Part shown: positions 3,660-20,833 of the stretch, in pieces
How the letters are laid out: the number at the start of each line of letters is the position of its first letter
Position numbering within the stretch: the stretch's first letter is position 1
DNA from: a virus
DNA length: 43,270 nucleotides
Virus record (IMG/VR): IMGVR_UViG_3300042558_000331
Coordinates: 1 to 43,270 of that record
Strand: one strand, 5' to 3'
Position numbers and translations under genes: made by a program
Notes under the pieces: model-generated
Told to the model about the DNA's origin: nothing
Databases searched by the model: none
The model's input: the letters and a program-made list of their open reading frames with translations, nothing else

Positions 3660-4925
3660 TTATTGTATTACAACTAAATTATCGTAATTACTTCCTTCAT
3701 ATGCTCGGACAGGAAATCCACCCCTCTCCAATGCCGTAGTTAATTCCTTCAATAGATTATCTCTATCTTGCGGATGTACATCAATTAAGAACGCATCGTA
3801 GGTATATAGTATCATTTTTGACCTTCTCCCATCACACCATTTCAGTACCTCATCAATCTTAGTATAATTGATTTCAGTTTCCAACGCCTGAAGCAGATAG
3901 TTGAATACCTTTTGTTCGTTTGGAGTTTCGATTCGTTGGAATGGGATTTCCCTCTTATAAAGAGGTGTCGTTAAACGGCCGGATATTACGAATTTTTGGT
4001 AAACCGATTGAATGTATTCATTTACCTTTTGAAAGAATGGAATGGTTTTCGCAAATTCATCCAATCCCCCATAAAGATATCGGAACGATAGGGCTTTAGA
4101 TTCTTCGGTCGTAACCCCATAATATTTTGCTAAATGTTCGTGCGCAGTTTCTCCTTCGGGAAATACATACCCCACCATCTTTCCAATGATACGGATGTGA
4201 TAGGATTCATAATCGAATTGAATCAAAGTACCCCCCTTAAACCTACTCACTATATTACTCCTACTACCATCGGATTTATTCATCGCAGCCCAATTAACCC
4301 CTAAGTGTCTATTGCTCGGTCTACCCGTTATCGTATATGGATTGTATTTTGTGTACGCAAATCCTTTGGGCAAATACTCATTATTGAAATGAAATCTATC
4401 AATAAATTTTTCTTCTTCGACTTTCACCCCAGCCCCCTCCAGCCTCCCTAATATTTTAATGGATTCTGAATATTTTCTATACCAAGGTTTGATATTTGAA
4501 ATTAATGGAATTTGTCTTAAAACTTCGTACCATCTCATTAGTGGTACACAATCATTTAGATATTTAAAGTCGCTTCTATACCCCTTATAAACCTCTTCAG
4601 CGAACTCATTGAGTATGAATGGTTTACCATACTCTTCAAAATAAACCCACTCATAATCAAGTCCTTTACTACCAATATATCGATTGCCAAAAACCAATGT
4701 GTTTTCGTTTGCAAACATACTCAATGCGGCTTGCCTACATTGACTTGCATCTATATGATTGAAATTTATAATGTAATCGGAATTATTGGTTCTCACATAT
4801 GCAAATGATATCGAAGTATCATATTCATGTGCTTTCGGAGAACTCCATACGGGTACTAACAAATCTACTTTTGGGTTAGATTTGTAAAATTCCAATAGGG
4901 CATTATTTGTTTCGATTAAATTCAT
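3660..4925 (-). CDS. Compact family A DNA polymerase (PolA-like), no 5'-3' exonuclease
   Basis: 421 aa. Palm and fingers motifs of family A polymerases appear in order. The template-grip segment is TITGRPSNRHLGVNWAAM at 198-215. Motif A is DYESYHIRI with D238 (canonical DYSQIELR). The O-helix motif B is KALSFRYLYGG at 277-287, keeping the Lys, Phe and Tyr-Gly positions of KAINFGIIYG. A thumb/palm helix, NEQKVFNYLLQALETEI, lies at 336-352. Motif C is YTYDAFLI with D377; the usual His-Asp-Glu is Tyr-Asp-Ala, so the catalytic Asp is kept but its neighbours are changed. The N-terminal ~150 residues have the size of a reduced 3'-5' exonuclease-like domain, but I cannot identify its catalytic carboxylates. 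It is much shorter than Klenow (about 600 aa). Flanked by the oxygenase (38-base gap) and the 721-aa gene. Probably an active or accessory polymerase; reduced processivity or a repair role is possible. Confidence 0.8.
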   Translation of the reverse strand: MNLIETNNALLEFYKSNPKVDLLVPVWSSPKAHEYDTSISFAYVRTNNSDYIINFNHIDASQCRQAALSMFANENTLVFGNRYIGSKGLDYEWVYFEEYGKPFILNEFAEEVYKGYRSDFKYLNDCVPLMRWYEVLRQIPLISNIKPWYRKYSESIKILGRLEGAGVKVEEEKFIDRFHFNNEYLPKGFAYTKYNPYTITGRPSNRHLGVNWAAMNKSDGSRSNIVSRFKGGTLIQFDYESYHIRIIGKMVGYVFPEGETAHEHLAKYYGVTTEESKALSFRYLYGGLDEFAKTIPFFQKVNEYIQSVYQKFVISGRLTTPLYKREIPFQRIETPNEQKVFNYLLQALETEINYTKIDEVLKWCDGRRSKMILYTYDAFLIDVHPQDRDNLLKELTTALERGGFPVRAYEGSNYDNLVVIQ

Positions 4926-4963
4926 ACCCTACAAAGATACTAAATTTTTATTAAATTACCAAA

Positions 4964-5725
4964 CTATTCTCCCCAATATTTTTGTCTTAATTCGTAAACA
5001 TCGATTGGTTCTCTTTTCATATGCTCACCTTGTCTAAGGAAACCACCTTTAACCATATATCCACTTAGAATGGAATATCTCGATGTTGTACCATTATTGG
5101 TATCAGAACCATGCACTAAATGTGAATGTATTAAAAATGCCTGCCCTTTCTTTAATTTAGCATATATCTTTGGAAAATTATGTCCTTCCGGCATTTTAGA
5201 TGCTTTACCTCTTTCGTTTCTCCAATGACCTGGATTTGTCTTAACTCTCTCCTCATCCACTTCAATATCCAATAGTGGTAAATAGTGAGAAGCCTCATAC
5301 GCCCATAATCCACCATTACTTTCATCCGATGGGTCTAATGATATTGATATATTTGCAATCTTATTCCATCCAGCTTGCGAATAGAACCCATCCTGATGAG
5401 CATCTCTACCTAATTCACCAACTGGTTTAAAATATGCCCAAGTCTGAACACCCTGAACTTCTGAACCAAATAGTAGTTCCATCATCTCTATTGCTTTAGG
5501 ATGTGCTAACATTTTATTTACCAATTCGGATTCTTTATGCGGATGCATATATGGTTCGTATTCTCCCCACTTTTCATCGGATTGGTTTCTAGCTATTCTT
5601 AATCTATCCAATTCAGCTATTACTTCATCTACTTCACTTTCGGTAAGAAAATCAACAATTGCGTAACCTTTATATTTCCAATCGTGCAATAAATGTTCAG
5701 CTTCAGATTGTGTAATATGTTTCAT
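4964..5725 (-). CDS. Fe(II)/2-oxoglutarate-dependent oxygenase, PhyH family
   Basis: 253 aa. The iron-binding triad is visible: H110-Q-D112 (HQDGFYSQAGW) and a distal His at H205 in LIHSHLVHGSDTNNG, followed by R216 in SRYSIL, the expected 2-oxoglutarate-binding basic residue. The N-terminal DWKYKGYAIVDFLTESEVDE segment is the usual entry strand/helix of phytanoyl-CoA dioxygenase-like proteins, and the length is normal. Such enzymes hydroxylate small molecules, sugars, lipids or halogenated compounds; the phage substrate is unknown. The ATG overlaps the stop of the upstream 124-aa gene (TAATG), so translation is coupled to a tail-region gene. Marine and freshwater phages often carry 2OG oxygenases; hydroxylation of a host metabolite or of a virion component are both open. 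Confidence 0.85.
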   Translation of the reverse strand: MKHITQSEAEHLLHDWKYKGYAIVDFLTESEVDEVIAELDRLRIARNQSDEKWGEYEPYMHPHKESELVNKMLAHPKAIEMMELLFGSEVQGVQTWAYFKPVGELGRDAHQDGFYSQAGWNKIANISISLDPSDESNGGLWAYEASHYLPLLDIEVDEERVKTNPGHWRNERGKASKMPEGHNFPKIYAKLKKGQAFLIHSHLVHGSDTNNGTTSRYSILSGYMVKGGFLRQGEHMKREPIDVYELRQKYWGE

Positions 5726-18089: not shown

Positions 18090-19823
18090 TTATTTATATG
18101 TTGGTGAGAAATAATCATAAACTTGTCCTACACCTGCTGCGTTTTGTAATGTGTTGTAAAACAATACAGGTCCAACTTGTCCATTCCAAAACGTTGTTCT
18201 TGCACTATTACTACCAATCGTTAAAAAGTTCGTAGATGATGGTGCTGTAAACGCTGCTGCTGTGAATGTACCTACCGATGTTTTATCAACATAAACAGTT
18301 ACAGTTCCACTTGGTTGGAATGTTGCTGAAATCATATACCAAACGTTTGATGATAATGATGTCGTTAATTGTGCACTATTTCCTAATGTACTACCATAGA
18401 ATTTTACTCTATTCAAAGTTGAACTATCGGATGATTCAATTGCTAAACCATAGAATCCAGCGTAGTCAAAAATATGTCTTGTAGTTGTACCTAATGTAGT
18501 TGTAGGTCTAACCCATACGTGAATTGTGCCGGTGTTTGTATTGAATTGAGCAATACCACCATTGATATTGGTAGTAGTATCTTTATACCAGAATTGGTTT
18601 GTACCATTTCCTGCCCAATACTTTTCTTTTCTACTTGCACCATTATTATATGATGGGTTACCACCACTAATACCTGCTGCATTTGGTGCGCCTGCCGGTC
18701 TAACACCTGTACCCCATCCTGTCAAATCTAACCAATCCGTACCAGCCGTTCCACCCGTAGATGATGCTTTTGATGGGTCTAAATATAATCTTAATCCTGA
18801 TGATGGGATATGTGGTTGTGTAGTTGTACCTTTATTGTGAGAAATAAATCCATTTGCTATGTAAACGTCAGCCTGCTCTACGTTAATAGTTGCAATCTCA
18901 ACATCTTCATTAACTATCTCAATATTTGTTACTTCAACTTCTTGTGTTTCATTTAAGAAATCATCCCACTTAACAATCATATCACCAATAAGAATATCTT
19001 CTACATTTTTAAAGTGATATTTTTCAATTTCAGAATCCCATACCCAAAGAGGGTGAGTTCCTGTTGCTTTAATTTCTCCATCGTTTAATGAGAAATATCC
19101 ACTAGCGAAGTTATAAACAACATCAGCTACAACAACAGTTTGTGCCGAACCAGATTGTGCTTCTAATTGATAGAATCTCCAATCAACTTGGTCAGATTCT
19201 GCATCTTGCGATTCATCCGGTAATCCTGCTGGCACCCATGCTTTAATTTCATCACCCACATTCAAATCCTCTACTGCTACCGATGTACCATCAGCTTTTT
19301 CTACCATTGTACCAAATACCAAACAAAAATCAGGTTGGTTAATTGTATTATAAACATCTACTGCGTATAATGTTTTTGTAGATGTACTATTATAGTTTGT
19401 TGCTGCTAAATTGAATCCATCCTGATATTTCATAGATAATACAGAAGATGCTTCAGAATAGTTAGAAGATGCAATTGATGCCGGAGTTATTGGAAACGAA
19501 GGAGTTGCTCCTAAAGTTGCCGAACCTACTGAAAAGTTTGCATTATCAAATGTTACCGAATAATTTGCCGCTACACTACCAACTCTACTACCATGCAAAG
19601 AACCAGCACTTCCAAATGTGAAACCCGCTGTTTCAGTTGTACTCTCTACAATATATGTGAATGTAGGTAAGTTTACAGTTACAGAATCAATTGCGAAAGA
19701 ACCCAATGAAGCTTGTGTTCCAGCCGTTGCATTCATAGCATTCATCGAAACCTGTTGTGTGGTTCTAGCTGAACCCACAGTTGCTCTATATAAGTTTCCT
19801 AATGATAGATTAGTTTTTGGCAT
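18090..19823 (-). CDS. Virion protein with intein-like Hint domain and C-terminal LamG-like domain
   Basis: 577 aa. Residues 1-166 are beta-rich and Ser/Thr-rich, resembling a tail-surface protein. Residues 167-330 form a Hint domain: C167 (FCLVFGTMVEKADGTSVAVE) as block A, T254-G-T-H257-P as block B, and VYIANGFISHN with H329-N330 as block G. Size (164 aa) fits mini-inteins or bacterial intein-like domains without a homing endonuclease. The residue after N330 is Lys, not Cys/Ser/Thr, so normal protein splicing is not expected; cleavage at N330 or at C167 is. Residues about 340-577 look like a concanavalin A/LamG fold (SSGLRLYLDPSKASSTGG, then GTIHVWVRPTT and VTVYVDKTSVGTF, ending in VGPVLFYNTLQ), which usually binds sugars. 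Lies between the glycosyltransferase and the sheath gene. The Hint may release the LamG part. Confidence 0.8.
   Translation of the reverse strand: MPKTNLSLGNLYRATVGSARTTQQVSMNAMNATAGTQASLGSFAIDSVTVNLPTFTYIVESTTETAGFTFGSAGSLHGSRVGSVAANYSVTFDNANFSVGSATLGATPSFPITPASIASSNYSEASSVLSMKYQDGFNLAATNYNSTSTKTLYAVDVYNTINQPDFCLVFGTMVEKADGTSVAVEDLNVGDEIKAWVPAGLPDESQDAESDQVDWRFYQLEAQSGSAQTVVVADVVYNFASGYFSLNDGEIKATGTHPLWVWDSEIEKYHFKNVEDILIGDMIVKWDDFLNETQEVEVTNIEIVNEDVEIATINVEQADVYIANGFISHNKGTTTQPHIPSSGLRLYLDPSKASSTGGTAGTDWLDLTGWGTGVRPAGAPNAAGISGGNPSYNNGASRKEKYWAGNGTNQFWYKDTTTNINGGIAQFNTNTGTIHVWVRPTTTLGTTTRHIFDYAGFYGLAIESSDSSTLNRVKFYGSTLGNSAQLTTSLSSNVWYMISATFQPSGTVTVYVDKTSVGTFTAAAFTAPSSTNFLTIGSNSARTTFWNGQVGPVLFYNTLQNAAGVGQVYDYFSPTYK
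18834..19325 (-). other. Hint (intein/BIL-type) domain inside the LamG protein gene
   Basis: Codons 167-330 of the 577-aa protein. Codon 167 is TGT (Cys), codons 254-257 give Thr-Gly-Thr-His, and codons 329-330 give His-Asn, the penultimate His and terminal Asn needed for Asn cyclisation. Codon 331 is Lys. No homing endonuclease insertion. Confidence 0.8.
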
Positions 19824-19834
19824 ATTATTATGTA

Positions 19835-20833
19835 TTATTCTCCGTTATAAATATCTAAAAGTTTTTCTTTCCACACATCTTTATTTCCAAAATGTGCAAC
19901 CATCCAATCTTTTAGTTTTTGAAACTCTTTTTTACGGGTTTCATAATCATCGTTACAAATCGTTTCGTAGGTCTGCTTAAATGTTTCCTCGTCAATCGCT
20001 TTGTATTTATAATCAAGTGGTACGTGCCATTTTTCATGTAGTATTGGAAGTTTCCCCCAATCCACTGCTTCAAATATTCCGTATCCAAATGGTTCAGATT
20101 CAAAGCAAGAATGAGATATTCCCCAATCAAGTCCGTAGAACCTTTCTTTATATTTGAAATCAAATTTATAAACTTTTGATTTTTCAAATTTGTATCCATA
20201 TTTTTTTCTATAATATTTGTTGAATGTTTCTGAATTGGTAGAAATAAAACTTTCTAATCCATCCAAATATTCAACATTTTTTCTACCTTCGCTCCTTGCT
20301 GCAAATCCAATTTTGGTAGAATGAGATAACTCATTATTTATTTTAAATTCATAAGTGTTTGGTATATGATATAAATTTTCCGTCTTATATGGAAAATGAT
20401 ATAATCCTACCCAAACTTTATTTTTAATCTTATCGATTAGTTCTGATTCATATTCCCAATTACCATACCAATGTAAATACTCATCTTTTTGTTGTTGAGC
20501 TATTAATGATACTTTGGTTAGATTATGGAAAACAATTGAATCAATCTTTTCCAAATTTTGATGAATAGCTCTGGTTGGAGTATAATGGCCGTGCAATATA
20601 TGTATCCTTCTAGCACCATCTAATATTTTTATTATCTCATCTTCCGATGTTTCCCAAATGTGGTCAATATCGATTGGAAATTGTTCATAATTTTCGGGCT
20701 TATGTCTATGGAATAGAAGAAGTGGCTTCACTTCTAAATGAGGTGCCACTTCTTTTATCCATTCGGTTACCCATATATCAGCACCGCTGTTGAACCAAGG
20801 GCCTCCAGCGGTGGTGTAGTAAACATCGTACAT
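19835..20833 (-). CDS. GT-B glycosyltransferase (GT4-like)
   Basis: 332 aa. Two Rossmann-like halves are suggested by strand patterns. The N-terminal half begins VYYTTAGGPWFNSGADIWVT, a Gly-rich acceptor-site loop. The C-terminal half has IGFAARSEGRKNVEYLDGLE (175-194, the 'G-R-x-x-x-K-n' donor-site segment) and FESEPFGYGIFEAVDWGKLP (244-263). The latter contains the E-x7-E pair, E247 and E255, with FG between them, as in retaining GT4 enzymes. It lacks a signal peptide or membrane helix, so it acts in the cytoplasm. Its ATG overlaps the stop of the 914-aa S74 fibre (TAATG), tying its expression to a fibre gene, and it is 11 bases upstream of the Hint/LamG gene. Possible targets are the Ser/Thr-rich fibres, phage DNA, or host surface sugar; the context favours the virion. 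Confidence 0.8.
   Translation of the reverse strand: MYDVYYTTAGGPWFNSGADIWVTEWIKEVAPHLEVKPLLLFHRHKPENYEQFPIDIDHIWETSEDEIIKILDGARRIHILHGHYTPTRAIHQNLEKIDSIVFHNLTKVSLIAQQQKDEYLHWYGNWEYESELIDKIKNKVWVGLYHFPYKTENLYHIPNTYEFKINNELSHSTKIGFAARSEGRKNVEYLDGLESFISTNSETFNKYYRKKYGYKFEKSKVYKFDFKYKERFYGLDWGISHSCFESEPFGYGIFEAVDWGKLPILHEKWHVPLDYKYKAIDEETFKQTYETICNDDYETRKKEFQKLKDWMVAHFGNKDVWKEKLLDIYNGE
19846..19855 (-). promoter_or_regulatory. ATATTTATA motif upstream of the Hint/LamG gene
   Basis: Coding-strand GATATTTATA inside the last codons of the glycosyltransferase gene, about 22 bases upstream of the ATG at 19823. Confidence 0.35.

Follow-up and report, generated by a model that had tools for sequence, protein, structure and literature searches.

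A modular phage tail-region protein with a BIL-like Hint domain and a conserved lysine at +1

The A-type bacterial intein-like (BIL) domains are reportedly due to Amitai 2003 and Dassa 2004. BIL domains are without a nucleophile at the +1 position and their products are mostly cleaved ones (PMC7664689); A-type BILs do splice at times (PMC5874633), and their ligation route needs no +1 side chain (PMC5874633, PMC7664689). In splicing, the BIL2 domain of BUBL makes an isopeptide bond which joins its N-flank to the epsilon-amine of a lysine, and it is able to pass the ubiquitin-like part to other proteins (PMC8616854). Here we describe a Hint domain of related type from the tail region of an uncultured phage.

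The ORF at 18090–19823 of the window (the whole stretch of viral DNA analysed, 43,270 nucleotides) lies on the minus strand, a point absent from the preliminary description, and specifies a protein of 577 aa; the plus strand is riddled with stops at this place. It sits in a T4-like tail cluster which is kept in relatives, with a gp18-type tail sheath gene (phrog_23, E 7e-69) directly downstream and fibre-like genes upstream, which supports the virion-protein context proposed earlier. The features, with the evidence for each, are:

18090–19823, minus strand: tail-region protein of 577 aa consisting of N-domain, Hint and LamG (ORF and homologues)
19326–19823, minus strand: N-domain, residues 1–166, a short N-terminal helix and an Ig-like beta sandwich (AF2 model, sequence family)
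18834–19325, minus strand: Hint domain, residues 167–330 (fold comparison and class profile)
19323–19325, minus strand: Cys167, residue 1 of the Hint (conservation in close and distant homologues)
19053–19064, minus strand: block B, T254-G255-T256-H257 (conservation in close and distant homologues)
18834–18839, minus strand: block G, H329-N330 (conservation in close and distant homologues)
18831–18833, minus strand: Lys331, the +1 residue (conservation in close, distant and N-domain relatives)
18093–18785, minus strand: LamG/pentraxin-like C-terminal domain, about residues 347–577 (Pfam and fold match)
19835–20833, minus strand: putative glycosyltransferase-like neighbour of 332 aa with a GT4-like motif (synteny)

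Amid the tail genes two further ORFs were recognized by eye, one DNA-polymerase-like (3660–4925) and one PhyH-like dioxygenase (4964–5725). Scanned against Rfam and for tRNAs, the window gave nothing.

The Hint starts at C167 with CLVFGT, has T254-G255-T256-H257-P258 as its block B, and ends in S328-H329-N330, after which the protein continues K331-G332-T333; translation of the ORF places Cys167, the T-G-T-H motif, His329-Asn330 and the Lys at +1 exactly where they had been reported. Because the Pfam Hint models score below cut-off on the 577-aa protein (Intein_splicing E 0.035, Hint_2 E 0.2), the assignment is founded on fold and profile. AF2 residues 164–332 (the model of the whole protein is moderate, pLDDT 63) match the NpuDnaB intein [Z 16.7], Hedgehog [Z 16.3] and the Clostridium thermocellum BIL [Z 16.2] in VIA-align; by fold alone inteins, Hedgehog and BIL domains are tied (Z 16–17 to the window Hint). 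The horseshoe fold, the Cys/Ser at position 1 and the block-B Thr-x-x-His of the Hint superfamily are all present, and the middle domain is a Hint, neither a chance feature nor a decayed intein.

The flanks agree with the earlier placement of the Hint between a beta-rich N-terminal half and a LamG-like C-terminal half. The N-domain, modelled by AF2 with pLDDT 83 and pTM 0.78, gives weak fold matches of Ig-like type, the best being to lambda tail tube protein V [Z 6.7], and its sequence family spans 26–60% identity. The C-terminal domain possesses a Pfam Laminin_G_3 match at residues 425–563 [E 3e-14, above cut-off] and resembles pentraxins [Z ~15]. What follows the same N-domain and Hint varies, however: LamG (~247–254 aa) in some relatives, at least two other beta-type regions of ~99–111 aa in others, and in the remainder only 7–21 residues (KGNNSQH, KGTNDAP, KGAASVSDTGDGIGHSFTEDG). 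Since relatives swap or lack LamG, its release or exposure, which had been suggested as the purpose of the domain, cannot be the general role.

A homologue search with the 577-aa protein gave 178 matches. Among the matches listed, 80 were full-length homologues at 72–100% identity, and all 80 of these have kept C167, T254, H257 and S328-H329-N330-K331-G332-T333. Fourteen representatives, whose Hints mostly share 28–39% identity with that of the window (the nearest 64%), have as invariant Hint positions C167, G179, G249, H257, E309, V315, G325, H329 and N330, then K331 and G332; thus C167, H257, H329, N330, K331 and G332 are the same in 14/14, and T254 is sometimes Asn. Within the Hint, dN/dS is 0.11–0.36. 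Loss of the catalytic residues in homologues had been named beforehand as evidence against a functional domain, and it was not found in close or distant homologues.

A query consisting of the N-domain only cannot select for the Hint. All relatives recovered with it carry a Hint with HN-KG, bar one ORF (L594) broken inside the Hint. The loci taken together yield 112 unique N-domain proteins, with Lys at +1 in 110 (a count which takes in three 5'-truncated ORFs where HNKG was read), Thr in one paralogue, and one broken; the +1 residue, which the preliminary description proposed to follow in homologues, is therefore essentially always non-canonical. Cys1, the block-B His, His-Asn and the Lys-Gly at +1 and +2 persist in ~110 unique relatives, at identities as low as ~27%. 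A second N-domain and Hint paralogue, at L551:1966–2944 upstream of the glycosyltransferase-like gene, has Thr at +1 and ends in HNTFHDK. No Hint-less allele was found by the N-domain-only search or among the 112 unique N-domain relatives, which argues that the Hint is a fixed part of the protein and not a mobile intein. A search of 50,697 phage records with the 577-aa protein gave no match, and therefore no cultured phage of this protein family is known to us; Microcystis phage Mel-JY01 and Flavobacterium phage immuto, isolates related through the tail sheath, are without a Hint of this class.

The +1 residue was examined more widely by two scans. The first employed the C-terminal motif with +1 left open and gave 120 viral sites, mostly enzyme inteins, with Cys in 80, Ser in 27 and Thr in 4 (111/120) and Lys in 4; Ser, Cys and Thr again dominated when cellular genomes were scanned with this +1-open motif. 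The second employed block A of small Hints and was blind to +1. After removal of two misparsed entries it comprised 55 parsed mini-Hints with a His-Asn end, 42 having Lys at +1, five Arg and eight other residues. Clustered at 60% identity these form 34 phage mini-Hint clusters, with Lys at +1 in 23/34 and Arg in 3/34, and the excess of Lys has p ~1e-21 against its background frequency of 5.3% in these proteins. Position +2 is not conserved, and A, T, S, G, E, I and F turn up occasionally at +1. A DNA-level cause for the conserved Lys was rejected because both of its codons are used in the wider family (AAA 36, AAG 16; AAA in 80/80 of the close homologues listed). To judge from these sequences, Lys at +1 is a positively conserved feature and not, as had been supposed, the mere loss of a nucleophile.

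Hints with Lys at +1 are a large and scarcely described class in environmental phages, and such domains are not rare there, contrary to the description of this one as an unusual maturation step. Our search of the open literature found no report of them in virion proteins. The lysine is kept where no residue, or one to three residues, come after it (L233, L435, L467, L531, L543, L525) and where it is the sole or nearly the sole residue between tandem Hints (HN-K-C, HN-K-F-C).

Tandem arrays occur as two or three Hints per phage protein, with a linker that may be a single residue (HN-K-C, HN-K-F-C, HN-R-A-C). They are found at L461:5624–6976, L504, L448, L489, L463, L491, L513, L185 and L233, and in LR756508 at 146447–148045; the LR756508 Hint protein, used as a query, found no relatives. 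Ten other phage loci (L440, L442, L452, L472, L486, L507, L512, L520, L526 and L539) possess ORFs with C-terminal Hint-like domains having Cys1 and a GSHxV-type block B and lacking the His-Asn end (e.g. ..EFTDYFE..), which looks like a second, Hedgehog-like class. Outside this set, Flavobacterium Rhs- or surface-type proteins (L332/L628 and L629) have a terminal Hint, with HNKN or HNKSNQNK, which no toxin domain follows, and a Planctomycetota protein (L327:2258–4492) has two N-terminal tandem Hints (HNKG-CFLPDT..HNKGGGGG) ahead of a stretch rich in glycine and of another domain.

Arrays with so little linker are odd for a processing domain, and might suggest a folded spacer which is kept for its structure and has either lost its processing or performs it very slowly. 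A domain that served only as scaffold would not, however, retain Cys1, the block-B His, His-Asn and Lys, and at 28–39% identity few positions are invariant, the catalytic residues among them; we consider this explanation improbable.

In a tree, the phage mini-Hints (46 with Lys/Arg, seven with other residues, two with C/S/T) lie apart from inteins (14 with C/S/T and one bacterial with Lys) with support of 94/88. Arg at +1 is nested within the Lys groups at several places; many inner branches are weak. The split bears upon the notion that the domain is a selfish class 1 intein which recently lost its +1 nucleophile. Although its fold is the same as that of inteins, the Hint is never absent from relatives, Lys is at +1 throughout the family, the phage mini-Hints branch separately from the C/S/T inteins, and there is no homing endonuclease. 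To this explanation we give hardly any credence.

We tentatively favour, with somewhat less than even confidence, the reading that this is a modular tail-region protein in which an A-type-BIL-like Hint processes itself, the amine of K331 being the acyl acceptor and plain cleavage a competing reaction. H257 would assist the rearrangement of the peptide bond between F166 and C167 into a thioester at C167, and H329 would help N330 to cyclise, whereby the amino end of K331 would be freed. The K331 amine (alpha, possibly epsilon) would then take the acyl group of the N-domain and the Hint would leave, so that the N-domain would be joined to Lys331 and to whatever follows, which is LamG here and, in other proteins, a tail of seven residues or no more than the Lys. 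Plain hydrolysis at one or the other junction would compete.

The preliminary description had the domain built for cleavage and not for splicing. The part of this which stands is that the catalytic residues are intact and that Cys, Ser or Thr is missing at +1; this absence does not decide between cleavage and ligation, since the ligation route of A-type BILs needs no +1 side chain (PMC5874633, PMC7664689) and BIL2 makes its isopeptide bond to a lysine (PMC8616854). Nor is the +1 residue the nucleophile of a third step, as was stated, for in class 1 splicing its part comes at the second.

Cleavage only, with N330 cyclisation and/or thioester hydrolysis cutting at one or both ends of the Hint and no rejoining, so that the N-domain and the LamG part come apart, is an explanation to be taken seriously, albeit we think it unlikely. 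The BILs tested give mainly cleaved products (PMC7664689), which counts against the ligation reading, the catalytic residues are intact, and the lysine could tune the rate, the charge of Lys or Arg perhaps steering Asn cyclisation. For C-terminal cleavage alone, however, the strict conservation of C167 and H257 would be superfluous; both ends are conserved (C167 and H257 as well as H329-N330), and such cleavage is therefore disfavoured. Furthermore, relatives with a tail of seven residues or one would release almost nothing, yet they keep Lys at +1. Its retention where nothing follows suggests a role together with the Hint itself: selection would not maintain a lone Lys that is set free, but could maintain one that is ligated or structural. 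Acceptance by the K331 amine would be the simplest reading to cover both the conservation of the two ends and the terminal lysines.

Whether the side chain takes part is a separate matter. Arg at +1 in three clusters implies that the side chain can at times do without a nucleophilic amine, and because Arg has none the +1 side chain may matter for its charge and not as an acceptor. A route through the alpha-amine, as in A-type BILs, would work with Lys and Arg alike; the preference for a positive charge would then be left unexplained. A bolder proposal, which we regard as rather speculative, is that this phage Hint class uses the conserved +1 Lys, or the amine exposed there, as a built-in acceptor for a covalent, possibly isopeptide, bond linking structural components of the virion, tandem copies providing several links per protein.

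The gene directly upstream may point to another acceptor. It specifies 332 aa and is found at this place in 82/83 unique relatives with enough DNA; a glycosyltransferase-like gene also adjoins Hint genes with unrelated N-domains (LR756508, L522). Instances are at 19835–20833 of the window, at L085:6485–7498 and on the minus strand of L522 (~4932–5457 of the reverse complement). From this synteny, a working link of the gene to the Hint protein is likely. Its motif GFAARxEGRKN ... EPFGYxIFEAVDxGKLPI resembles GT4 glycosyltransferases, and a comparison of the protein with PDB gave no match. An amine or hydroxyl from outside, on a lysine of another tail subunit or on a glycan, might attack the C167 thioester and the N-domain become attached to this partner, as in Hedgehog with cholesterol or BUBL BIL2 with protein lysines. 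That BIL2 conjugates to other proteins (PMC8616854), the constancy of the upstream gene and its presence beside unrelated N-domains, and the many Hints at or near the very C-terminus speak for such a transfer. Yet no partner is known, the C-terminal His-Asn would be superfluous, and the glycosyltransferase call consists of the motif and a sub-threshold Pfam match (E 0.037, in 2/16 members), and we hold transfer to be distinctly unlikely.

If the K331 reading is true, a self-acting covalent maturation step would be added to phage tail building, the absent +1 nucleophile would represent a positive choice of lysine in a phage Hint class, and there would be a rich natural supply of small Hints with a different acceptor for protein ligation. 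The combination Cys1 ... His-Asn-Lys could serve as a marker when environmental phages are searched for virion proteins that process themselves.

Compared with known systems, the class of the window Hint is closest by sequence to A-type BIL domains. A class profile (A3), built from 16 diverse Lys-type Hints including that of the window, matched among solved structures BUBL BIL2 of Tetrahymena thermophila [1e-27; 6TMM, 6Y75], then the C. thermocellum BIL [2e-25], and inteins at 5e-16 or weaker. The structure of the C. thermocellum A-type BIL is 2LWY. Shared with A-type BILs are the Hint fold, Cys1, the block-B His, the C-terminal His-Asn, the lack of Cys/Ser/Thr at +1, and variable host proteins with changing flanks. 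Unlike them, the class of the window Hint has a conserved Lys (sometimes Arg) at +1, resides in phage tail- or virion-type proteins, and often occurs in tandem copies or at the very end of the protein. The comparison with BIL2 does not extend to its +1 residue, as the crystallised construct is mutated and the alignment ends before +1. Membership of BUBL was rejected: those proteins are eukaryotic with ubiquitin-like flanks, which were not found here, where Pfam places only LamG beside the Hint and the N-domain is weakly Ig-like.

PT-HINT of bacterial polymorphic toxins (PF07591) likewise directly precedes an exchangeable C-terminal domain, but here LamG, other beta-type regions or nothing follow the Hint, and no toxin domain; this membership was also rejected. 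The Bacteroidota toxin-like Hints examined have A, N, G, Q, T or V at +1, and Lys in only two proteins. To the class 1 inteins of phage enzymes (terminase, RNR, DNA polymerase) there is likeness in fold and probably in first-step chemistry, but these have C/S/T at +1 where the window Hint has Lys331. Hint-less alleles exist for the class 1 inteins of phage enzymes; with Lys at +1 and no intein-less alleles found among the relatives, this membership was set aside. So was that of Hedgehog Hog, which has no C-terminal Asn and has a sterol-recognition region, whereas here His-Asn is present and LamG follows. Among phage proteins, the Alexandravirus virion structural protein (Erwinia/Dickeya jumbo phages) and the "large intein domain protein" of phage NCTB have a similar C-terminal Hint 7–10 residues before the end, but with Thr or Ala at +1 and unrelated N-terminal parts. 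Hints without a +1 nucleophile are thus already known from A-type BIL and PT-HINT; what our search of the open literature did not find described is a broad phage class with conserved Lys at +1, tandem arrays and terminal HNK.
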